In this document: piece after piece, positions 13,635 through 33,047 of the stretch
Layout: every line of letters starts with the position of its first letter
How positions within the stretch are numbered: the first letter of the stretch is position 1
Source of the DNA: Maritalea porphyrae
GTDB taxonomy: Bacteria > Pseudomonadota > Alphaproteobacteria > Rhizobiales > Devosiaceae
Reading direction: 5' to 3'
DNA: 64,000 nucleotides
NCBI RefSeq assembly: GCF_027213965.1
Contig: NZ_JAPWGX010000001.1
Coordinates: 1 to 64,000, forward strand
Program-made: the position numbers and the translations under genes
Notes under the pieces: model-generated
Databases searched by the model: none
What the model was told of the DNA's origin: nothing
What the model saw: the letters and a program-made list of their open reading frames with translations, nothing else

Positions 13635-14154
13635 GCAACGGCTCTGGATTTGCGCCAATGACGCCCTGCTCGACCTCTTCGCCCAATTCAATGAGCAATT
13701 CGGTCATAAACACGCGGACAGTCTCTTGGTCGTGAGTGGTCAGATGCGGGATTAACCCGCGCAATTTCGATGGTGTCGTGAGCAATTTGCGCTTGAACGA
13801 CATGCAAACCGCCGTCCAAGCATTTGAAACCTCGTCGACAGAAAGGACATTGCCTTTCAGCTCGTCGCGCTTCAGCTCTTTGGTTTCAGTGTCCGCAAGC
13901 TGTGCGCGCAGTTTCAAATCTGCCAACTCATCGTCGTCAGTTCGGCCCGCGGCTATTTTTCGGTAATGCTCAAAACAGTTGTTCAGAGATTCAAGCGTCA
14001 GGTAGACGCCTCGCTGTCTCGGTGCCCGTTTGATAATCCCAGATTGAGCAAGATTTTGGATAGTTCGCTTGTTTACCCCAAGCATCTCGGCAAGGTCTGT
14101 CACCTTGCAGGTTTGGGGAAGGAACTCGGCGTCGTTCGTGGACTTTACTGCCAT
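13567..14154 (-). CDS. Terminase small subunit (Nu1-like)
   Basis: 195 residues. The N-terminal winged HTH 'KVTDLAEMLGVNKRTIQNLAQSGII' (about 17-41) matches the Nu1 DNA-binding domain. A helical middle with 'LADLKLRAQLADTETKELKRDELKGNVLSVDEV' and a basic C-terminus (KRKATPRKRAKK) follow. It should bind the packaging site and recruit the large subunit. No clear Shine-Dalgarno is seen; translation may be coupled to the gene ending 3 bases upstream. Confidence 0.87.
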   Translation of the reverse strand: MAVKSTNDAEFLPQTCKVTDLAEMLGVNKRTIQNLAQSGIIKRAPRQRGVYLTLESLNNCFEHYRKIAAGRTDDDELADLKLRAQLADTETKELKRDELKGNVLSVDEVSNAWTAVCMSFKRKLLTTPSKLRGLIPHLTTHDQETVRVFMTELLIELGEEVEQGVIGANPEPLHVKATKRKATPRKRAKKVTHTT

Positions 14155-15603: not shown

Positions 15604-16163
15604 GGTGACGAACCCCTACAAAAAAAATCTCAATCTCTATTCAAAAGGGGTCCGGTGGCCCCACGGTGCGCAGCTAGGTTGTACGGTCCCTAAACATGCT
15701 ATTCCTGCCATTCTAAGCAGCGCACAGCGCCATGCGCGCACATCACGCCACCCCCATAGCCTAAACACCATCACTCACGCTCACGCTGCATCTATCGCCA
15801 CGCATCGCACGCCACCCACATTGGGCAGTGCATAGGGTCGGGCATATGGCTAAGGGCATGGGCAAGAGGGGCAAGGGCCAAGGCTATGGCCTTACATATG
15901 GAAAGCCCTTGCGCCTAACGGGCTGAGGGCTAGGGCAAGGGCTTATCCATTGGGAGTTAGCCTTGAGGCGTAGTTTTCCAACTTACCAACTAACAAGGCT
16001 GTTTATGGGGTGATTTGCTAACTAGGGCAACCTTGGCCATGATTCCAAAAACCGCTTTAGGTTTTGGCTAACCTCTTTGTTTTATTTGTGCTTTTTCCGT
16101 TTTTATTTGTGTTTTTCCCTTGTATTTTCCGGGGTTTTTCCTTATATTTGAAGTGTAAGAAGT
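15604..16163. other. Gene-free divergent region; origin or packaging-site candidate
   Basis: No convincing gene between the leftward late module and the rightward small-gene module. The plus strand is C-rich and G-poor at about 15730-15820, then abruptly G-rich with repeated GGGCA/AAGGGC words (15830-15945), then very T-rich with several TTTTTCC words (16070-16145). It carries a 10-bp inverted repeat and smaller palindromes. Such composition switches, iterated words and an adjacent easily melted T-rich tract are common at replication origins; terminase sites (cos/pac) also often lie here. Confidence 0.5.
15903..15944. repeat. Perfect 10-bp inverted repeat
   Basis: AAGCCCTTGC at 15903-15912 is repeated in inverted orientation as GCAAGGGCTT at 15935-15944, with 22 bases between. 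The loop contains more GGGCT/AGGGC words. It is in the divergent intergenic region and has no T-tract, so a protein-binding or origin role is more likely than termination. Confidence 0.8.
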
Positions 16164-16189
16164 ACCCGCCTATTGGCAACTTAACAGGA
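16164..16189 (+). promoter_or_regulatory. Leader element L1 (gene-less copy)
   Basis: CCCGCCTATTGGCAAC followed by TTAACAGGA. First copy of the repeated leader; its dyad has only three clean pairs (GCC/GGC). The next ATG (16203) opens a frame that reads across copy L2 and lacks coding character; it is buried in the hairpin at 16200-16226. Confidence 0.75.
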
Positions 16190-16199
16190 CTTCAAGCTC

Positions 16200-16226
16200 A
16201 AGATGGGCGGACCTTCTGCCCATCTT
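16200..16226 (+). promoter_or_regulatory. Perfect 9-bp hairpin between L1 and L2
   Basis: AAGATGGGC (16200-16208) pairs with GCCCATCTT (16218-16226), 9-base loop. It follows L1 and ends 7 bases before L2. No run of T follows, so it is not a classic terminator; an attenuator or RNA-stability structure is inferred. Confidence 0.7.
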
Positions 16227-16232
16227 ATAAAA

Positions 16233-16258
16233 CCCGCCATTTGGCAACGACGACAGGA
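16233..16258 (+). promoter_or_regulatory. Leader element L2
   Basis: CCCGCCATTTGGCAAC, then GACGACAGGA; the stem is GCCA/TGGC. The AGGA is the Shine-Dalgarno of the gene starting at 16268 and heads a cluster of three overlapping genes. Confidence 0.85.
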
Positions 16259-16267
16259 TCAAAGACT

Positions 16268-16579
16268 ATGCTCACCCTATACGGCAAAACATACGCCAAA
16301 ACAAAAACCGAGTTTACAAACTCACTGTTTAACCCTGAAGGCACTTGCAACGGCTTCTATAAGAAAACACGCGGCGGCGTTATCTTGTCCGATATGCAAC
16401 AAAACGAACGCGTATTTATTCGCAAGCGCGACGGGTTGCTTGTCACTATTAGGCGGCAAGAGGACAACACAAGGCGCTACATGTTTGCGACGTCCACCAG
16501 CGACGAAAACTGGTTAGGCGTGCCAGAAAGCTACATAGCCGAATGTGATGGCGCGTTTGAGGCGGTGCAAAATGCTTAG
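16268..16579 (+). CDS. Unknown phage protein, first of a coupled triplet
   Basis: 103 residues (MLTLYGKTYAKTKTEFTNSL...). The start at 16268 is set by leader L2; a longer frame upstream would translate the leader itself. The protein is mixed alpha/beta with 'VFIRKRDGLLVTIRRQED' and no cysteine motif or membrane segment. No family recognised. Overlaps the next gene by 8 bases. Confidence 0.75.
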   Translation: MLTLYGKTYAKTKTEFTNSLFNPEGTCNGFYKKTRGGVILSDMQQNERVFIRKRDGLLVTIRRQEDNTRRYMFATSTSDENWLGVPESYIAECDGAFEAVQNA

Positions 16580-16859
16580 TTTTGATCAAGCATATGAGAT
16601 GCACCAACAAGCCATGGACGCCCGAGACATTGCAGGCGCTGCATTGGCTAAATACCAAAAAGGGCCGCTTGGCTTAACCCCTGAAGGCGTCAAATTTTCG
16701 GCCCCGTATCGCAAAGATTTGGCGGCTTGGAACAAGGCATTTAAGCAAGTGCGCGTTGCCAACGCTTATTTGCTCAAACACTACAAAAGCAAATTCAACC
16801 AACGCCAACGGGAAGAAAGAGACGCGCGACGCATGGCCAAGCTGGGGGCAAGCGCATGA
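16572..16859 (+). CDS. Unknown helical phage protein
   Basis: 95 residues from ATG 16572, which overlaps the end of the previous gene. Highly basic and helical C-terminal half (FKQVRVANAYLLKHYKSKFNQRQREERDARRMAK), so it may bind nucleic acid; this is inference. Its last four bases overlap the start of the next gene. Confidence 0.72.
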   Translation: MLSFDQAYEMHQQAMDARDIAGAALAKYQKGPLGLTPEGVKFSAPYRKDLAAWNKAFKQVRVANAYLLKHYKSKFNQRQREERDARRMAKLGASA

Positions 16860-17053
16860 CCTATACGCTAATCATCATTATGCACTTTGCGTCTGGTCAC
16901 TTCACTGAAACGGCTTTGCACCAGCATTTGAGCTTGGAAGAGTGCATTCATTTGGAACGGCAAATCTGGGATCTTGACTACCCGGTAGTTTATGAAGATG
17001 AGGCCGGGCCTGCGTGGTCACTAGACGCCGCTTGCATACCGATTAAGGACTAA
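16856..17053 (+). CDS. Small protein, paralogue of the product at 19476-19682
   Basis: 65 residues, ATGA overlap with the previous gene. It shares a pattern with the 68-residue product at 19476: M-x-Y-x-L-I near the start, an HF pair, E-x-C in the middle and 'GPA..LDAAC.P.K' at the end. The hydrophobic start is short. Function unknown; the duplication inside one module suggests an early-expressed factor. Confidence 0.75.
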   Translation: MTYTLIIIMHFASGHFTETALHQHLSLEECIHLERQIWDLDYPVVYEDEAGPAWSLDAACIPIKD

Positions 17054-17063
17054 AAATCAACTA

Positions 17064-17091
17064 CCCCGCCAACGTGGCAACTTCGACAGGA
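17064..17091 (+). promoter_or_regulatory. Leader element L3
   Basis: CCCGCCAACGTGGCAAC, then TTCGACAGGA; stem GCCA/TGGC with a 3-base loop. Shine-Dalgarno for the gene at 17101. Confidence 0.85.
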
Positions 17092-17100
17092 AAAACCAAA

Positions 17101-18003
17101 ATGACCTATCTAATCAATGACGAAACACTTGTTTACACCCAAAAGGGGCAAGCCTCTTATCGCGTGCAATTCATTGTTGATAACGATCCGCAAAACCCTT
17201 GGGAAGACTGGGAAGGCTCAACCCCTCTTGCGGTCCTATCCTTTGGATATGGTTCAAGTTCAACAATCAAAGAATATACAAGCGGTCATGACATTTTGAA
17301 CCCTATTGGGAACATGACAACGGCCTATGTTTCACGCAATCGCAAAGCCATATTTGACCTTTTGGATATTGATCAAGCTTTTGAAGCGTTTGAAGATGAA
17401 TGCAAAGAATATGGGGCAGGCAATCTTGCGGACTATCGGCGCGATGAATTTATTGAGGCGCTAGGCGGTATGAACGCAAGCGACCGATTTGAGGCAATCG
17501 CAGCACTTTGGGAAATGCAGGGCATACCAGCGCAATGCACGTCTAGCAATGGTTACTCGCAGGGCGATTATGTCGAATTGTTGTTTGTTGCTCACCCTGA
17601 TTGGATCAAAGAAATTGGGTTTAAATCGGTCAAATCATACGTCAAGCAATGCGGTTCAACTTTTGAAGGCGACGCAAATACCTATGGCGCTTGGGCATGG
17701 GGCGGAGTGATTGGCTATAAACTCGATTTGCTAGATCCTCAAGATATTGAGCGCGGCGACTATGACGCCAACGAATTGCAAGAGGTTGAAGAGGTCAATT
17801 CTTGTTGGGGCTTTTATCCTTCAGGATCTAGCGACTATTTCCCACTTGAAAAGAATTTTGCCTATCTCATTAAAGAGATTGAAGGGGGAATTGAAAGCCA
17901 TAGAAAGCGCACTTTCAAAGCCAAATCAGCACGGCTTGCAGAACTAATCAAAAACCATGTGCCTTTACACGTCAGGCAAGTTGAACTTGCGAAATTTCTT
18001 TAA
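17101..18003 (+). CDS. Unknown 300-residue phage protein
   Basis: Start at 17101 follows leader L3. Acidic, soluble, no recognised motif. Visible features include an aromatic-rich centre with 'YGAWAWGGVIGYKLDLLDP', an acidic 'DANELQEVEEVNSCWGFYPSG' and a basic end. The sequence from ~175-230 looks like a compact conserved core. Stands alone as a one-gene unit headed by its own leader. Function unknown. Confidence 0.78.
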   Translation: MTYLINDETLVYTQKGQASYRVQFIVDNDPQNPWEDWEGSTPLAVLSFGYGSSSTIKEYTSGHDILNPIGNMTTAYVSRNRKAIFDLLDIDQAFEAFEDECKEYGAGNLADYRRDEFIEALGGMNASDRFEAIAALWEMQGIPAQCTSSNGYSQGDYVELLFVAHPDWIKEIGFKSVKSYVKQCGSTFEGDANTYGAWAWGGVIGYKLDLLDPQDIERGDYDANELQEVEEVNSCWGFYPSGSSDYFPLEKNFAYLIKEIEGGIESHRKRTFKAKSARLAELIKNHVPLHVRQVELAKFL

Positions 18004-18013
18004 TTCCAAGCCC

Positions 18014-18035
18014 TGCCCATTGTTCGCAATGGGTA
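18014..18035 (+). promoter_or_regulatory. Hairpin with TTCG loop between gene clusters
   Basis: CCCATTG pairs with CAATGGG around a TTCG tetraloop, extendable to 9 pairs. A second small hairpin, GGGG/CCCC, lies at 18041-18053, just before leader L4. No T-run; likely 3'-end protection or attenuation. Confidence 0.65.
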
Positions 18036-18057
18036 GCACTGGGGATTAACCCCAAAA

Positions 18058-18083
18058 ACCCGTCAATATGACAACAGAAAAGG
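18058..18083 (+). promoter_or_regulatory. Leader element L4 (compensated dyad)
   Basis: CCCGTCAATATGACAAC, then AGAAAAGGA. Here GCC/GGC is replaced on both arms (GTCA/TGAC), preserving the pairing. Serves the gene at 18094. Confidence 0.85.
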
Positions 18084-18093
18084 AAAACGAGTT

Positions 18094-18252
18094 ATGAAAA
18101 CCCTTGACCATAATACTTCAATTTATTTCCCGCCACATTTGATTGATCCACGTTCGGAGCGGGTCCAACGCGACCGCAAAGAGGGCAAGCGCGAACGCCG
18201 CGCAACACGCCTTGCACGCATTGCACAAAAACGTTCTTGGCTCTTGCACTAA
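18094..18252 (+). CDS. 52-residue very basic protein
   Basis: MKTLDHNTSIYFPPHLIDPR followed by a strongly basic stretch (RDRKEGKRERRATRLARIAQKR). Likely binds nucleic acid or an acidic partner. Starts 10 bases after the AAGGA of leader L4. Its stop codon shares two bases with the next start (TAATG). Confidence 0.68.
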   Translation: MKTLDHNTSIYFPPHLIDPRSERVQRDRKEGKRERRATRLARIAQKRSWLLH

Positions 18253-18380
18253 TGCACCAGCCAGAACCTAAACCAACGCTTGGCGATTGGTTGCGCGACA
18301 TAATGGCATTGGCCGCTATTGCGGCCTTTGCCACCGCCTTAATCACCTGGGCCGATATATTGGCCGCTTTAATTCACTAA
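18252..18380 (+). CDS. 42-residue single-pass membrane protein
   Basis: MHQPEPKPTLGDWLRDIM leads into a hydrophobic run (ALAAIAAFATALITWADILAALIH) long enough for one membrane pass. Translationally coupled to the preceding basic protein through TAATG. Leader L5 begins immediately after its stop codon. Function unknown. Confidence 0.62.
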   Translation: MHQPEPKPTLGDWLRDIMALAAIAAFATALITWADILAALIH

Positions 18381-18406
18381 ACCCGCCATTTGGCAACAGA
18401 ACAGGA
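18381..18406 (+). promoter_or_regulatory. Leader element L5
   Basis: CCCGCCATTTGGCAAC, then AGAACAGGA; its dyad is identical to L2. It starts on the base after the previous stop codon and heads a six-gene overlapping cluster. Confidence 0.87.
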
Positions 18407-18414
18407 ATTTTGAA

Positions 18415-18894
18415 ATGACAATCACACCGGATCAACTTGTTAGTCGGGAAGTTCACTACTGCGTAAGTTCGCTAGTTCATACGCTGGCTAGCTCCAGCGC
18501 GGGTCATGGTGATGACCCACTCAATATTTTGCTTGGGCAAGCGCACGGCCTCTTTACACCACTCTATGACTATGAAAGCGCCGCTCGAGAAGCTAACTGG
18601 GAGTTTGACGAAAAAGAGGGCCATTGGTGGCGCGTAGAAACGTCCAACGCCAACGGCCTAGAATTGGCGTCGACTGCTGAAAACGCTTGTGCAATAGATG
18701 ACATTGAACCCCACGAAACAGAAATTCTAGAGCACTGGATTGTCTCAAATTGGCTTGCCGAACAGCTTGAAGCTAAAGGCCAGCGCGTTGACAATGATTT
18801 TGCAGGTCTAACCGTTTGGGCAAGGACCACGAGCGGCCAAGCCATTAGCCAAGATTATGTAATTCAACAAATCCATGCGGAGTTGGTGAAGTGA
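18415..18894 (+). CDS. Unknown 159-residue acidic protein
   Basis: First gene of a six-gene cluster, start set by leader L5. Acidic overall; the C-terminal third 'EHWIVSNWLAEQLEAKGQRVD' plus 'FAGLTVWARTTSGQAISQD' resembles short ORFs I recall from alphaproteobacterial plasmids and phages, none with known function. Overlaps the next gene by four bases. Confidence 0.75.
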   Translation: MTITPDQLVSREVHYCVSSLVHTLASSSAGHGDDPLNILLGQAHGLFTPLYDYESAAREANWEFDEKEGHWWRVETSNANGLELASTAENACAIDDIEPHETEILEHWIVSNWLAEQLEAKGQRVDNDFAGLTVWARTTSGQAISQDYVIQQIHAELVK

Positions 18895-19130
18895 ACAACA
18901 TTGAAATCGTTAAAAAATACGGCTTTGAAATCTTACCCCGCGAGCAATTTATGGCAAAGCGCGGCCCCCTTTTTGATCCATTGATCGAAAGGTCAATCGG
19001 CAACAAGCTAACACGCCTGCTTTATGTCCTATTTGATCCAAGTAGCGACGAACAAGGTTGGTTGCTATGGGGCGACGATCCCGAAGAATTGGCGCGTGAA
19101 ACCGTTGAGTTTATGGAGTTGGTGGCATGA
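18891..19130 (+). CDS. 79-residue unknown protein, GTG start
   Basis: A GTG start overlaps the previous stop (GTGA). 'MNNIEIVKKYGFEILPREQFMAKRG' and an acidic C-terminus. Compact, no cysteines, no membrane segment. Not recognised. Confidence 0.68.
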   Translation: MNNIEIVKKYGFEILPREQFMAKRGPLFDPLIERSIGNKLTRLLYVLFDPSSDEQGWLLWGDDPEELARETVEFMELVA

Positions 19131-19324
19131 ACAAATTCAATATGGACACCTTGGCCAGCGAGATCAACGACAGAATGATTGAGGAATTTTGCGACATTTG
19201 CGAAAGCTACGGCATCGTCTTGCCCAGTGAGCAAAACGACGCTCTAACAATTGAATTGAGTTTAGCAACTTCATTGTTTGTTGAAATTGCGAAGCGGACA
19301 ATTTCGCGGGGTGAAGCCCAATGA
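19127..19324 (+). CDS. 65-residue unknown acidic helical protein
   Basis: ATGA overlap on both sides. Predicted helical with two cysteines (FCDICESYG) near the middle. Not recognised. Its closeness to neighbours suggests production in fixed ratio with them. Confidence 0.66.
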   Translation: MNKFNMDTLASEINDRMIEEFCDICESYGIVLPSEQNDALTIELSLATSLFVEIAKRTISRGEAQ

Positions 19325-19479
19325 GACACACCCTTTCAATTTCGATGTTTGATACACCATTAAACGACGACCAACTTGCAGACGAGATGGAGCGAATAGC
19401 TGGCATGGTGCGGGAAGGGTTTACGAGTGGTGAAATAATCCGAGAAGATCAGCGCGGCTGGTGGGATATTGAACAATGA
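19321..19479 (+). CDS. 52-residue unknown protein
   Basis: MRHTLSISMFDTPLNDDQLA... ending RGWWDIEQ. ATGA overlaps with both neighbours fix start and end. Predicted beta start followed by a helix. Function unknown. Confidence 0.65.
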   Translation: MRHTLSISMFDTPLNDDQLADEMERIAGMVREGFTSGEIIREDQRGWWDIEQ

Positions 19480-19682
19480 AATACGCCCTCATAATGCTTT
19501 TTCACTTCTCACCGGAAAGTCACATTTACTTCCAATTTGGTGGCCCAATGACGTGGGAGCAATGCCGAGCAATCGTCACCAGAATTGATCAACAACCATC
19601 ACGCTTAGTCTTTACAGATTTTGACGGGCCAGCGCGTGAACTGGACGCAGCTTGCACACCAGCAAAAGGAACAACACGCTAA
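19476..19682 (+). CDS. 68-residue protein, paralogue of the product at 16856-17053
   Basis: Shares the pattern 'M.YALI..FHF', 'EQC', and 'GPARELDAACTPAKG' with the earlier small protein, while the middle differs, so the two are diverged copies. Four-base overlap with the preceding gene. Function unknown. Confidence 0.73.
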   Translation: MKYALIMLFHFSPESHIYFQFGGPMTWEQCRAIVTRIDQQPSRLVFTDFDGPARELDAACTPAKGTTR

Positions 19683-19933
19683 TGCACGACATAACAAAGT
19701 TTTTTATTTCTCACACCAACGGTCATGATTTTGGGATTGATGTCTTTTTAGACGACAACGGCAGTATGTCCACACGTCGCCAATGGGTTTTGTCAATCTA
19801 TCACGAAGGGCCACCACATTTAGAAGTGCTTTATGCCAATTCAGATGATGGTGATTTTGACAATCAAAACACGGTCAAACGCGCCGATATAATCGGCCTT
19901 GCAATGGATGCAATGCGCAAAAAATTGAATTGA
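19682..19933 (+). CDS. 83-residue unknown protein
   Basis: ATG 19682 shares a base with the previous stop (TAATG). Beta-rich N-terminus (KFFISHTNGHDFGIDVFLDD) then a C-terminal helix ending in RKKLN. Last gene of the L5 cluster. Not recognised. Confidence 0.7.
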   Translation: MHDITKFFISHTNGHDFGIDVFLDDNGSMSTRRQWVLSIYHEGPPHLEVLYANSDDGDFDNQNTVKRADIIGLAMDAMRKKLN

Positions 19934-19970
19934 TCGCAAACCAAACCATTTAGACCAAAAGACCAACAAA

Positions 19971-19997
19971 ACCCGCCGACATGGCAACTGAAAAGGA
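19971..19997 (+). promoter_or_regulatory. Leader element L6
   Basis: CCCGCCGACATGGCAAC, then TGAAAAGGA; stem GCCG/TGGC contains one G-T pair, which is allowed in RNA but not in a strict DNA palindrome. Serves the DnaN gene at 20007. Confidence 0.84.
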
Positions 19998-20006
19998 ACT
20001 AATACC

Positions 20007-21152
20007 ATGAACACAGCAACACAAATCCAAACCATTGAGAACGTACAAATTGCACAAAACGTAACATTTGAGCGCACCAGCGCCCTAGCGGCAATGAAGG
20101 CGGCAATTCTTGCCTCAGATGCTAGATCAACAGTGCCAATTTTGGGCAGCGCCAAACTTGAATTTGCCAATGGTATTGGCACAATTACTTGCCACAATCT
20201 TGATGTTGAAATTGAGGCGCAATTTGCCACGGAGTGCGATAATTCAGGCGCAGCGGTGATCAATGCAAAAGACTTTGAAAAGCTGCTAACCAAGCTAAAA
20301 TCTGATCAATTCAGCTTGGAAATTGGCGACAATGCCACGCTTGGCGATGGGAAGCGCTCTTACACCTTGCCAATGGAAGATTTGGACCAATTCCCAAGCT
20401 TGCGACGTATCGACGCCCAATCAACCCTAGTAATGCCAGCGCAAACCCTTTTTCAAGCAATCCAACGGGTCAAGGGCGCAATTTCAACCGATGAAACCCG
20501 CTATTACCTCAATGGCGTTTACATGCACCATGAGGACGGGTTTTTGAAGTTCGCGGCCACTGACGGGCACCGCCTATATGTTCAACAATATGCACAAAAT
20601 GCGCAAGACATGCCCGGGGTCATTATCTCAAGCGACACAATCAAAATGCTCGAAAAGATATTAAAGGGCCAAACCTGCCCAATTTCAATTGACGTGAGCG
20701 AAAACCGCCTTGTGGTGCGCGTTGGTGACGTGACAATTCGTTCAAAGTTGGTTGAAGGCACATTTCCAGATTACCACCGTGTAAAACCCAATTTTGACTA
20801 TTCCAAACCGGAAGCTGAATTGGAAATTGAACAAGCTGAGTTTTTGCAAGCAATCAAAGATGTAACTATCTTGGCAACTGGTAAATCAGGTAAGGCGATT
20901 GTCGTTGAAAACACCGAGGATGGCCTATCATTAAAGACAATCATCAACGGTTCAATCTCAACGACAAACATCAACGCTCAAGGCGATTTGCCTTACAAAT
21001 GCGGGTATAATTCAACATATTTGGCGGACCTTTTGACCGTGTGCGGTGCTGGCTCGATTACCTATCGCGCTGAAGACGAGCGCTCACCTTGTCTGATCAC
21101 TGCTGAAGGCGCTGAGGGCTGGCAGGGCGTTGTAATGCCAATCCAGGTCTAA
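20007..21152 (+). CDS. dnaN: DNA polymerase III beta subunit (sliding clamp)
   Basis: 381 residues, close to bacterial DnaN (~370). Three-domain clamp features are visible: 'DARSTVPILGSAKLEF' in domain 1, 'YYLNGVYMH' and 'FAATDGHRLYVQQY' in domain 2, and the C-terminal 'GVVMPIQV', matching the conserved VMPMRL end. It tethers the replicative polymerase to DNA. A phage-encoded clamp is uncommon; it may replace or compete with the host clamp. Headed by its own leader L6, no partner gene directly attached. Confidence 0.94.
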   Translation: MNTATQIQTIENVQIAQNVTFERTSALAAMKAAILASDARSTVPILGSAKLEFANGIGTITCHNLDVEIEAQFATECDNSGAAVINAKDFEKLLTKLKSDQFSLEIGDNATLGDGKRSYTLPMEDLDQFPSLRRIDAQSTLVMPAQTLFQAIQRVKGAISTDETRYYLNGVYMHHEDGFLKFAATDGHRLYVQQYAQNAQDMPGVIISSDTIKMLEKILKGQTCPISIDVSENRLVVRVGDVTIRSKLVEGTFPDYHRVKPNFDYSKPEAELEIEQAEFLQAIKDVTILATGKSGKAIVVENTEDGLSLKTIINGSISTTNINAQGDLPYKCGYNSTYLADLLTVCGAGSITYRAEDERSPCLITAEGAEGWQGVVMPIQV

Positions 21153-21174
21153 ACGCTCGCCACCGCCTAACAAT

Positions 21175-21190
21175 GGGGCAGCAATGCCCC
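21175..21190 (+). promoter_or_regulatory. GNRA-type hairpin before L7
   Basis: GGGGCA pairs with TGCCCC around a GCAA loop (a stable GNRA tetraloop in RNA), 2 bases before leader L7. No T-run. Confidence 0.65.
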
Positions 21191-21192
21191 TA

Positions 21193-21219
21193 CCCCGTCA
21201 ACTTGACAACAGAACAGGA
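21193..21219 (+). promoter_or_regulatory. Leader element L7 (compensated dyad)
   Basis: CCCGTCAACTTGACAAC, then AGAACAGGA; paired changes on both arms give GTCAA/TTGAC. Heads the cluster starting at 21229. Confidence 0.86.
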
Positions 21220-21228
21220 CAAACGAAC

Positions 21229-21795
21229 ATGACCAATGCAATAGAGTTTAAATGCCGAACGTGCGGCGGCGAAGAGATTGTTTGGGGCGCTACAGTCAAA
21301 TGGGACAAAGCCAACCAATGCATGGAACCGGGGAACAATCTTGAGGGCGCGTATTGTGACAATTGCGAGGCTGATATTGATCCAGTACAGGTTGATACAG
21401 GCAAGCCGTTCAAGACCCCAATCATACTGAACGAAAGCCAATCGTTTGACCTTTTGTGCCTCTTTGAAATTGTGAGCGATTGCACTTTGACTGAGCACGA
21501 AACCAAATATCCAAACATCAACCGACTGCGAAGCGACATAGGGATCGCTGAATTGCGCGACCTACTGATCAAATTAACACCAGCGCTTCACACGCTCTAC
21601 AATGATCACATGACCGACGACGAGCGAGAGCTATTTGTGCCGTTCGATTATGATTTTGTGCCGTGGTTTGTCGATCTTTTGGAAACAACTGACGCGCTGC
21701 CCTACTATTACGGACGGGGTGAACTTGTTGAGGTGAAACCGTTCGTTCTGCATTTGCTTTTGGAGATTGAACGTCGCAAGGAGCAAGCCGCATGA
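21229..21795 (+). CDS. Zinc-ribbon protein of unknown function
   Basis: 188 residues. CRTC near residue 9 and CDNC near residue 43 form a four-cysteine zinc ribbon; the rest is acidic and helical with 'LFVPFDYDFVPWFVDLLE'. Start at 21229 fixed by leader L7. A nucleic-acid or protein adaptor role is possible. Overlaps the next gene by four bases. Confidence 0.75.
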   Translation: MTNAIEFKCRTCGGEEIVWGATVKWDKANQCMEPGNNLEGAYCDNCEADIDPVQVDTGKPFKTPIILNESQSFDLLCLFEIVSDCTLTEHETKYPNINRLRSDIGIAELRDLLIKLTPALHTLYNDHMTDDERELFVPFDYDFVPWFVDLLETTDALPYYYGRGELVEVKPFVLHLLLEIERRKEQAA

Positions 21796-22073
21796 GCAAC
21801 GATGACCCAACAAACAACGACCGCGCCCAACGCATAGTCGAGCCGCTAAAGGTGTATCAGATCACTGTAGGGAAGCAAGGCGACGTAATCAGCGGCGATG
21901 AAGTCAAGGATATGCTCATCGACCTGCGCCATTTTTGCGATGCTAAGAAGCTGGATTTTGATGATCTCGTTAGCTCCTCTAACACGCATTACCAATGTGA
22001 AATTAACCCGAGAGATGTCGACGGCGGCCCAATTGCCGATGCTGTTGAATTTCCCGAATGGAGCGAGGAGTAA
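21792..22073 (+). CDS. 93-residue unknown acidic protein
   Basis: Contains 'MLIDLRHFCDAKKLDFDDLVSSSNTHY', a segment I have seen in plasmid and phage ORFs near replication genes, without an assigned role. ATGA overlap with the zinc-ribbon gene. Function unknown. Confidence 0.72.
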   Translation: MSNDDPTNNDRAQRIVEPLKVYQITVGKQGDVISGDEVKDMLIDLRHFCDAKKLDFDDLVSSSNTHYQCEINPRDVDGGPIADAVEFPEWSEE

Positions 22074-22078
22074 GCACA

Positions 22079-22456
22079 ATGAAATTCGAAGTTTCAATAG
22101 GATTTGACAGCCGCGCCTATGCGACAATTGAACTTGAAGCAAATGACATCGATGAGCTGGAAAGCGTTGACTACCGGGGCATAATTCAGAATGGTGGCGT
22201 TCACGTTGAGCACTCAGATTTTGACATGCCGCTTAACATCAATATCATTAGTGCAACCGATGAAGACGACGAGCACCATCACATTGACCATGAGATTGAA
22301 GATACGTTGAATATCACTGGTCATACGTGTTTATCAACCAATCAAGTCCGCGAACTTATCACAGCCATAGAAAGCGGCACCGCCTATAATTCTGACGTTT
22401 ACAGCGACCTCAGAAAACAATTGGCCGATGTCGACGCTCCTGCAAAGGGTGACTAG
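22079..22456 (+). CDS. 125-residue unknown acidic protein
   Basis: ATG 22079 with its own Shine-Dalgarno GAGGAG 8 bases upstream, so the earlier in-frame ATG (22058) is rejected. Beta-strand start (MKFEVSIGFDSRAYATIELEA) and an acidic/His-rich middle (DEDDEHHHIDHEIED). Not recognised. Confidence 0.7.
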   Translation: MKFEVSIGFDSRAYATIELEANDIDELESVDYRGIIQNGGVHVEHSDFDMPLNINIISATDEDDEHHHIDHEIEDTLNITGHTCLSTNQVRELITAIESGTAYNSDVYSDLRKQLADVDAPAKGD

Positions 22457-22469
22457 CCCTGCCCTTGCA
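22441..22469 (+). promoter_or_regulatory. Hairpin at the 3' end of the L7 cluster
   Basis: TGCAA(A)GGG pairs with CCCTTGCA with one bulged A; it overlaps the last codons of the upstream gene. No clear T-run. Confidence 0.55.
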
Positions 22470-22510
22470 ATGTAATATCTGCAAACCGATTCCCAAATGA
22501 AAGCAAACAC

Positions 22511-22981
22511 ATGCAAAACAAACTATCGGGCAAGCCCGCAAAGCGATTTTTCGCAAAGGCAATGCCCGCAAATGGCGGCGGGTTCCATGCCCAATATGCA
22601 GCGCCAGGGCTTGTGCCTGGATATGTGATGGTAGGTGGCCAGCGACAAAAATTTAACACAGAATTTGAGGCCACATTCACCGCGCAGAAAGTCCTTATTG
22701 AAGTTTTACAAAACCGAATTGATGCCCCAGAATTGCGCGACAAATACCAATTGGCCAGCGCCAATGAATTGTCAGAAGCCTTGGACAATGCGGACATTTC
22801 TCCCCAATTCTTCTCTTGGTTGACCGGCGCGCGGCCACGAACAGTCTTAGGCTGGCTTGATGGATCAATGGTAATTCCGCACCATGCCTTTTTGTTGTCT
22901 CAGCTAGGCGTAGATCAAGCCACACTTGACACAATGGAAGAGATCACTAAGTCGCGTATTGTTGAGGATGACGAACGCTAA
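22511..22981 (+). CDS. HTH-domain protein of unknown role
   Basis: 156 residues. A likely helix-turn-helix lies at about 103-130 ('FFSWLTGARPRTVLGWLDGS'), similar to XRE/HigA-like folds. The N-terminus is basic and glycine-rich (KPAKRFFAKAMPANGGGFHAQ). It is the only gene in this block that starts a new segment without a leader element (54 bases after the previous stop), so it could itself be a regulator of that element; speculation. Confidence 0.68.
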   Translation: MQNKLSGKPAKRFFAKAMPANGGGFHAQYAAPGLVPGYVMVGGQRQKFNTEFEATFTAQKVLIEVLQNRIDAPELRDKYQLASANELSEALDNADISPQFFSWLTGARPRTVLGWLDGSMVIPHHAFLLSQLGVDQATLDTMEEITKSRIVEDDER

Positions 22982-22990
22982 ATCCATAGC

Positions 22991-23015
22991 AACGCCAATT
23001 GGCAACAGCAAAGGA
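22991..23015 (+). promoter_or_regulatory. Leader element L8
   Basis: AACGCCAATTGGCAAC, then AGCAAAGGA; a perfect GCCAATTGGC palindrome. The upstream CCC is reduced to AAC. Serves the HerA-like gene at 23023; last copy. Confidence 0.82.
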
Positions 23016-32049: not shown

Positions 32050-32277
32050 TTATTCAGCGTTCGCGGGTTCTGTTTCTAACTCGTCGTATAAATCTGGGCG
32101 TATTGTCTCCATTGGCACTCCAATGAACCGAGAAACTCTCGGAACACGGGCTGGTGGGCACGTTACCCAGGCTGAAATGGCTTGTGACGAGATGCAACCA
32201 AGAAAGCGGGAAAGCTTTACAGGGCCGCCAGCGGCCTTGATCGCTTTTTGAAGGTCAAATGTTGTTTCTTTGCTCAT
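32050..32277 (-). CDS. YdaS/Cro-like repressor
   Basis: 75 residues. 'FDLQKAIKAAGGPVKLSRFLGCISSQAISAWVT' is a YdaS-family HTH, commonly in the Cro position of lambdoid prophages. Divergent from the CI gene with a 74-bp gap. It should bind the operators there and favour the lytic early operon. Confidence 0.85.
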   Translation of the reverse strand: MSKETTFDLQKAIKAAGGPVKLSRFLGCISSQAISAWVTCPPARVPRVSRFIGVPMETIRPDLYDELETEPANAE

Positions 32278-32351: not shown

Positions 32352-33047
32352 ATGAAAGCTATGGAATCAATTGGCAGCCGCATCACACATTTGCGAGAAA
32401 ACATTTTGAAACTCACTCAGGAACAGTTTGCTGAGCGCCTACGTGTTTCCCGAGGGGCCGTGGGTAATTGGGAGCGAAATAAACCAATCGGACGGAAAAG
32501 CATTGAAATTATCAGCAGCACATTTGATACTAGTGTTGACTGGCTAATCACTGGTCAGGGGCTCCCCCCGAGTGGCCAAAGTAATATTTTAAGTCAATTG
32601 GAACCGCCATCCAACGCGACTATTGTGGGCTCTGTCGAAACAACCCCCACAATCAAGATCCCATTGTATGGGCACGCAGTTGGTGGCGCAGATGGTGAAT
32701 TTGTGCTGAATGGTAATAAACTCGATGATATATCAGCCCCGCCTGTCCTTTCGGGCATACGCGGGGCTTACGCTGTAACCGTGGCTGGCGATTCAATGGA
32801 ACCTCGTTATGAGGATGGTGAAACCCTATTTATCGATCCACAAAAGCGCGTTTCAAAGGGCGACTACGTGGTGGCGCAAATACAAACTGAGGAAGATGGA
32901 CCCATTTGCGCGTACATCAAGAAGTTTGTCCGCCACAACTCGGCAGAGCTGATCTTGGAACAATTCAACCCAACCAAACAACTACAGTTCGATCACGACC
33001 ATGTGGTTTCAGTAGACTATGTGGTGATGGGTGGGCGGCTTTTTTAG
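32352..33047 (+). CDS. CI-type repressor with S24 peptidase domain
   Basis: 231 residues. N-terminal XRE HTH ('LTQEQFAERLRVSRGAVGNWE') and C-terminal LexA/CI peptidase with Ser in 'VAGDSMEPRYEDGE' and Lys in 'AYIKKFVRH'. The probable cleavage stretch reads 'GHAVGGADGEF', with no Ala-Gly or Cys-Gly pair, so RecA-assisted self-cleavage is less certain. Maintains lysogeny and likely also represses the leftward and possibly rightward operons. Confidence 0.92.
   Translation: MKAMESIGSRITHLRENILKLTQEQFAERLRVSRGAVGNWERNKPIGRKSIEIISSTFDTSVDWLITGQGLPPSGQSNILSQLEPPSNATIVGSVETTPTIKIPLYGHAVGGADGEFVLNGNKLDDISAPPVLSGIRGAYAVTVAGDSMEPRYEDGETLFIDPQKRVSKGDYVVAQIQTEEDGPICAYIKKFVRHNSAELILEQFNPTKQLQFDHDHVVSVDYVVMGGRLF

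Follow-up and report, generated by a model that had tools for sequence, protein, structure and literature searches.

Introduction

The cluster K mycobacteriophages carry start-associated sequences (SAS) and extended start-associated sequences (ESAS), repeats whose role was still called "proposed" in 2025 in the section that treats them (PMC12699233). Of the ESAS, the authors state in their passage on these repeats that the departures seen in them do not support RNA pairing (PMC3203893). The RegA protein of phage T4 is 122 amino acids (aa) long and acts at sites which, as summarized in PMC3014915, have no clear structure and include the AUG region, while phage N proteins bind boxB hairpins through an arginine-rich helix, as outlined in PMC11480772. 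Here we describe a repeated leader element from Maritalea porphyrae (RefSeq assembly GCF_027213965.1, contig NZ_JAPWGX010000001.1), found in positions 1 to 64,000 of the forward strand; this full stretch of 64,000 nucleotides (nt) is referred to as the window. The element lies in the plus-strand early block of a prophage, at about 16.1 to 24.4 kb, and consists of a small hairpin just upstream of the Shine-Dalgarno (SD) sequence of genes such as dnaN. From sequence comparison we judge, with confidence slightly above even, that it is a phage-wide translational RNA operator that would be read by an N-like arginine-rich peptide. Searches of the open-licence PubMed Central (PMC) literature brought up no earlier description of this element.

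A Repeated Leader Element in the Prophage Early Block

An earlier note, made from the letters of the window, had listed eight leader elements in the early block, and all eight are present. Seven are good copies (L2 to L8), in each of which a small stem is followed by CAAC, a spacer of a few nt, AGGA and finally ATG, and one (L1) is degenerate. A scan of the 64 kb for the stem-CAAC-AGGA-ATG arrangement returned seven matches on the plus strand and none on the minus strand, whereas 200 dinucleotide shuffles gave 0.125 on average and never more than 2; the comparison is descriptive, the motif having been derived from these very copies. A covariance model, R1, was built from L2 to L8 and five copies from two other phages. 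R1 scored the eight window copies at 21.8-41.2 bits, with the next best match at 12.3, and on the 3.6 Mb genome to which the window belongs (120 of 3691 candidates were scored) it returned the eight copies and one 19.3-bit match. Among 60 relatives, 36 gave at least one R1 match at E ≤ 1 (best 0.013), and none of these matches lay in a cluster. Rfam 15 had no match in the window at the gathering score, and in the early block and six related loci nothing relevant appeared at E values of 5 or less. The features of the block are given below, all on the plus strand, with the evidence in brackets.

16161 to 16189, plus strand: L1, degenerate copy (GCCT/TGGC) with no credible gene after it (R1, 21.8 bits)
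16200 to 16226, plus strand: strong hairpin between L1 and L2, with 9 perfect pairs, AAGATGGGC/GCCCATCTT, and 12 pairs in the fold (sequence, fold)
16229 to 16258, plus strand: L2, leader hairpin and SD of gene 16268 (R1)
17061 to 17091, plus strand: L3, leader of gene 17101 (R1)
18055 to 18084, plus strand: L4, leader of the arginine-rich gene 18094, stem GTCA/TGAC (R1)
18094 to 18252, plus strand: 52-aa arginine-rich protein, candidate RNA-binding partner, core RRATRLARIAQKRSWLL (likeness to open reading frames of element phages)
18378 to 18406, plus strand: L5, leader of gene 18415, overlapping the stop codon of the preceding gene (R1)
19968 to 19997, plus strand: L6, leader of dnaN (R1)
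20007 to 21152, plus strand: dnaN, phage DNA polymerase III beta subunit or sliding clamp (Pfam PF02767/PF00712/PF02768)
21190 to 21219, plus strand: L7, leader of gene 21229, stem GTCA/TGAC (R1)
22511 to 22981, plus strand: small helix-turn-helix (HTH)-like gene, rival partner, no element ahead of it here (blastp)
22987 to 23015, plus strand: L8, leader of the HerA-like ATPase gene 23023, without ACCCG (R1)

The description in the earlier note had to be adjusted in several details. L1, counted there among the eight, is in the right position, but its stem is not intact, having a T opposite a T at an A-U position (21.8 bits). The ATG of L1 (16203) sits inside the strong hairpin at 16200-16226, and its frame overlaps gene 16268. 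A strong hairpin directly upstream of a weak copy was also seen in another phage, G002 (L012, ~13905-13930). The ACCCG that was said to be common to all copies is missing from L8, and loops reported as 2-5 bases measured 2-3 nt within the 4-bp stem of L2 to L8. The elements had further been said to head every gene cluster and never to occur inside one. Eighteen gene starts were counted, start 16572 being entered one base off. None of the ten coupled starts (overlapping the previous stop or within 5 nt of it) has an element. An element is present at seven of the eight uncoupled starts (first in the block or >30 nt past the previous stop), the exception being the HTH-like gene 22511. Several elements start at or adjoin the stop codon of the previous gene.

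A Related Element in Other Phages

The repeat is real and extends beyond the window. A window-derived pattern applied to 2.9 million viral contigs identified G001 and G002, phages of 64 kb that each have the element ahead of an SD and start codon. G001 has 11 copies (one with a single outer pair) and G002 has 9 (two with a single outer pair). Later scans added G063 and then G064, G065, G068 and G069, with at least two copies each, and searches with proteins, described below, added others. In total, a related element was found in 11 phages or prophages besides that of the window, a count from which those contigs of a 29-stretch scan that had only one copy or fewer than three outer pairs were left out; G066, G067 and G070 have one credible copy apiece. 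The consensus in the other phages is NNN-C[A/G]-AUYG-UG-N'N'N', followed mostly by ACC, GCC or AAC, then AAGGA and AUG, and the window copies are a short-loop variant of it. The outer pairs of G068 are nearly uniform (GCG/CGC in 10 of 11 stems) and those of G001 varied (AAG/CUU, GGC/GCC, GCU/AGC, GGU/ACC and others).

R1 gave no significant match (best E 2.9) in the fetched stretches of three control phages with dnaN, Rhizobium phage 16-3, Aurantimonas phage AmM-1 and Rhizobium phage RR1-A. Short blastn searches of phage records with two leaders gave no match better than E 0.8, and the weak ones obtained covered mainly the right arm, SD and start. Gene 17101 as a viral query found no relative. 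A second model, R2, was built without window copies and run over 397 genomes of the order; with 18 candidates scored per genome, its three hits are no census. The hits L106 and L107 were rejected, as the scan found no SD and start in place. In L105 (G394, a host relative), a single canonical hairpin (CGGTCAATCGTGACC) was seen at ~1523 on the minus strand before the SD of rplK (ribosomal protein L11); at E 9e-4 and in one of 397 genomes, it may be a chance match. A pattern scan of genome contigs gave five stretches that were judged chance, four of them without an ATG in place. In L095 (6993-7020, plus strand), from a record titled Candidatus Woesearchaeota archaeon, an ATG lies 9 nt behind AGGA; this match is probably also chance.

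Conservation of the Hairpin Pairing

The earlier note had read covariation from the window copies themselves. GCC/GGC and GUC/GAC do both pair, but in the window alone the case is thin and it rests on the other phages. For the 5-pair structure, the 26 non-window copies had 32 cells changed on both sides compared to 0-6 when the structure was slid along the alignment, and 55 model-aligned copies had 62 such cells compared to 1-18 in slid controls, many rows of both sets having been partly chosen for pairing. In a stem-blind test, rows were therefore picked only by CAATYGTGNNNACC, AAGGA and ATG. Among these, 61 of 81 outer pairs were formed where shuffling predicts 31.7, and all three were present in 13 of 27 rows (2.05 expected). 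Without the discovery phages, all three pairs were formed in 7 of 16 rows compared to 1.6 expected (P 0.0002). The prediction that stem changes would stay compensatory as copies were added was thus borne out.

The element could also act in cis only and have no trans-acting reader, the hairpin serving to keep the SD open or to mark uncoupled starts for re-initiation. Strict confinement to uncoupled starts would suit such a role, as would the copies that begin at or beside an upstream stop codon. We nevertheless regard this as unlikely, since the invariant C-G and A/G-U pairs and the AUYG-like loop, combined with free outer pairs, resemble a recognition site, and since the core pattern, which misses variants such as those of the window, matched only once in 385 genomes from across the class, at a locus without a paired hairpin.

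Position Relative to the Start Codon

The distance from the stem foot to AUG is 19.5 nt (standard deviation 2.0, n = 56 copies), with 53 of the 56 at 17-22 nt, in a scan that itself demanded an SD and start within a window of positions. When the start was not required, 41 of 58 canonical hairpins (at least three outer pairs, 11 phages) had an AUG opening a reading frame of at least 30 codons 14-24 nt downstream, compared to 1240 of 14400 random positions (8.6%); some of the 11 phages had been discovered with patterns containing an ATG. Restricted to the four phages that protein searches had uncovered, the count was 11 of 16 hairpins. The element thus keeps a fixed position relative to SD and AUG, as would be expected of a translational operator. 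The earlier note had left it open whether one factor controls translation or transcription, and the constant distance to the start codon favors translation. Promoter matches in the block showed no excess (11, compared to 10.2 in shuffles).

Dyad symmetry in several copies is also what a DNA operator of a phage repressor would present. This is extremely improbable in view of the link to SD and AUG, the lack of a promoter excess and the way in which half-site spacing, half-site sequence and loop length vary while pairing is kept. Sites of RNA processing or stability that create a 5' end for each cluster would likewise be placed at cluster heads; with short stems, a conserved loop and a fixed distance to AUG, we consider this very unlikely as well.

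Genes Headed by the Element

The gene dnaN is headed by an element in all five element phages whose fetched DNA showed this gene (the window, G001, G063, G201 and G123; Pfam searches were part of its identification), which agrees with the expectation of the earlier note that copies would lie beside homologous genes in related phages. The HerA-like ATPase gene headed by L8 (23023-24405, HerA_C) has homologs in G002 and G063.

A short arginine-rich gene was seen in 11 of the 12 element phages, window included, and an element stands ahead of it in 9 of these 11, namely the window phage (52 aa), G001 (47), G002 (47), G064 (42), G065 (45), G068 (34), G201 (32), L162 (42) and G123 (43, chosen by eye). 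R-x-x-R-R-x-R-I-A-x-K-x-A-F describes the core of the proteins, which varies; in eight of them only R, R and K are invariant. The window protein (18094) matched a profile built without it weakly (E 6.2), and was aligned and then included in later profiles. Pfam and PHROG searches with four of the proteins (G001, L064, L065 and the window) returned nothing better than E 0.07, and a PDB search with two of the arginine-rich queries found no relative. AlphaFold2 predicted, with modest confidence (pLDDT 65.6), one helix across the basic half of the G001 protein.

Searches that started from the protein led back to the element. The arginine-rich gene as first query in a viral scan returned five loci, among them two new phages, L161 and L162, with several elements each. 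In 397 genomes of the order, weak matches were obtained in 55 besides the own genome, and the loci of 19 were fetched. One of these, G201 (E 0.011), contains a block with multiple copies of the element and a 32-aa version of the protein that is itself headed by an element. The match in G211 was set aside for want of elements.

When aligned to the arginine-rich profile, the P22 N peptide scored above 99.6% of its own shuffles (shuffle test 0.004), and the candidate partner resembles the N arginine-rich motif as given for P22 N in PMC11480772. This likeness, together with the location in a phage early block, would also fit nut or boxB-like sites at which an N-like protein is reloaded for each gene cluster for processive antitermination. 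We hold such an account to be improbable. The copies share no boxA-like sequence, GCTCTT being present in 1 of 56 upstream stretches of 45 nt, and antitermination has no need of a constant distance to AUG. Partners of 32-34 aa would leave scant room for contacts with NusA and polymerase. Terminator-like sites in the block also speak against it, at 18 on both strands compared to 12.1 (standard deviation 3.8) in shuffles. The sole boxA-like case was upstream of a G001 copy (L009, 18563-18593, minus strand) and reads CGCTCTTTC.

The HTH-Like Gene as Alternative Partner

The earlier note had named the HTH protein 22511 among its candidate factors. This protein had no Pfam hit. By blastp its gene is common to 10 of 11 element phages and clusters with no open reading frame of the three controls, so co-occurrence supports the proposal; the arginine-rich gene 18094, absent from the list in that note, is in our view the better candidate. 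Members of the HTH-like family include window 22511-22981, G001 (L009, 8411-8659, minus strand) and G064 (L100, 12823-13206, plus strand), the window copy having an N-terminal extension. A search of 297 genomes with the HTH-like gene as first query returned the own genome and G201 (both in the query), G123 and four weaker genomes. G123 had four R2 matches (E 0.02-0.2), two of which were also found by a stricter scan. No canonical element with three outer pairs was present before a start in the stretches of G133 and G077 or in the small loci of G259 and G048.

A small HTH-like protein, or a host protein, might accordingly be the reader in place of the arginine-rich one, and the route by which G123 was reached fits this idea. 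It appears quite unlikely to us, as HTH proteins normally bind DNA and as G133 and G077, although found through the HTH-like gene, gave no canonical element in their fetched stretches. Co-occurrence points to a phage module comprising the element, the arginine-rich gene and the HTH-like gene, and does not on its own identify the reader.

Elsewhere in the window, a YdaS-like protein (32050-32277, minus strand) and an S24-type repressor (33047 being the end of its gene, which starts at 32352 on the plus strand) are encoded back to back and are perhaps the immunity switch of the prophage. The own genome has GcrA, which is usual for Alphaproteobacteria; the same GcrA control also matched in Sulfolobus.

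Proposed Mechanism

We propose that the operator in early mRNA consists of three variable pairs, an invariant C-G pair, an A/G-U pair and an AUYG loop that is shortened in the window phage. The hairpin foot stands about 20 nt before AUG, just upstream of SD, at starts uncoupled from the upstream gene. At this distance it is close to where the mRNA coverage of an initiating 30S subunit begins on the upstream side. The tiny arginine-rich protein, usually encoded behind one copy, would bind the hairpin as lambda and P22 N peptides bind boxB, and the resulting complex at the edge of the 30S-covered region would alter initiation at the cluster heads jointly, dnaN and the gene of the peptide included. 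That a single trans-acting factor might serve all copies, as had been suggested, is plausible. The net effect would most likely be repression with negative feedback, resulting in early-gene shut-off, with activation as the second option; negative feedback is favored because the arginine-rich gene usually lies under its own element. A precedent is HIV Rev, which reportedly repressed reporters in E. coli via a hairpin placed ahead of the SD.

The sequences show directly that the hairpin pairs, where it lies, how often it recurs, which target genes are conserved and what it co-occurs with; from this we infer binding, the identity of the partner and the sign of the effect. Several results count against the proposal. 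Regarding the hairpin, the stability of L2 to L8 in energy folding was not above that of shuffles (z -1.34 to 1.11); the evidence for the structure is comparative, and folding energy contributes nothing to it. In the leaders of arginine-rich genes of five other phages, the hairpin was present at minimum energy in three and failed in G201 and G123, and because of these two our confidence in an operator was lowered to its present level. R2 detects just two window copies, weakly (18.2 and 14.1 bits), and gave no match at E 0.01 on the own genome, and therefore the link between the window and the other phages rests on the window-derived pattern, on shared arms and context and on shared genes. In control phage 16-3, the scan gave a single loose match that has SD and ATG (L014, 29246), and two canonical hairpins of the same phage precede a loosely defined SD and start.

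Regarding the partner, the arginine-rich genes of G063 and L161 are present behind another leader instead of the element. The leader in G063 (L060, 7577-7591, minus strand) has a different hairpin, GCCGC-CACGC-GCGGC, which has another loop but keeps the spacing of the element, ending 20 nt before AUG. No arginine-rich gene was seen in G069, a partial contig. Although a later arginine-rich profile recovers the gene from 10 of 11 phages, 8 of these 10 had contributed to it; the G068 gene was weak (E 5.9) prior to its inclusion, and the G123 gene, chosen by eye behind an element, is outside the best eight profile matches there. The profile retrieved no N peptides from the PDB. Across 385 genomes of the class, weak profile matches led to 26 non-self loci of ~3 kb each, and a canonical element was absent from all of these. 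The HTH-like gene co-occurs with the element equally well, and it was the HTH-first search that led to the new element phage G123. Finally, the small size of the proteins, 32-52 aa, is unfavorable for a steric block.

A more far-reaching version, which we put forward tentatively and at less than even confidence, concerns a lineage of temperate phages that includes, at the least, some prophages in the order of the host. In these, a minimal arginine-rich peptide (down to 32 aa, hardly longer than an RNA-binding helix) and a hairpin repeated up to 11 times would together set early translation, that of the peptide's own gene and of the sliding clamp included. The outer pairs would drift freely, C[A/G]-AUYG-UG would be recognized, and peptide and loop would have co-drifted in the window phage. 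If true, this would provide naturally diversified peptide-RNA pairs for study. With a covarying hairpin, conserved targets and a tiny candidate reader encoded beside them, the question reduces to a plasmid reporter test. To our knowledge, phage-wide translational regulons are little known outside T4.

Comparison With Known Systems

No known family's defining features are present in the element as a set. The E. coli thrS operator is a hairpin just upstream of the SD, at which the bound protein competes with the ribosome; it differs in belonging to a host gene, in being a single site and in being bound by a large protein.

The candidate pair would resemble lambda and P22 N-boxB in combining a predicted arginine-rich helix with a 5-bp hairpin and a small loop, and P22 N (PMC11480772) and the G001 protein have a similar core, RRx[ED]RRx[KR][LI]A. 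Unlike N-boxB, the element has no boxA, has another loop and occurs in many copies, each ~20 nt before AUG, and its partner is of 32-52 aa.

The analogy with cluster K SAS and ESAS that was drawn in the earlier note applies to position and fails for pairing, since in the authors' view RNA pairing finds no support in the ESAS departures, and the stems described here covary. In the passages of PMC3203893 and PMC12699233 on these repeats, SAS and ESAS are, like the element, repeated at the translation starts of a subset of phage genes, contain the SD core and can include the upstream stop codon. According to the same passages, SAS is a 13-bp sequence repeat and ESAS consists of 17-bp imperfect inverted repeats, whereas the element is a short covarying hairpin with arms of a few pairs and a candidate reader gene.

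The Pfam and PHROG searches with four arginine-rich proteins gave no homology to T4 RegA, and the element site differs in being a hairpin upstream of the SD. The logic would be the same as that outlined for RegA in PMC3014915, where a single small protein encoded by the phage works on the initiation regions of numerous mRNAs.

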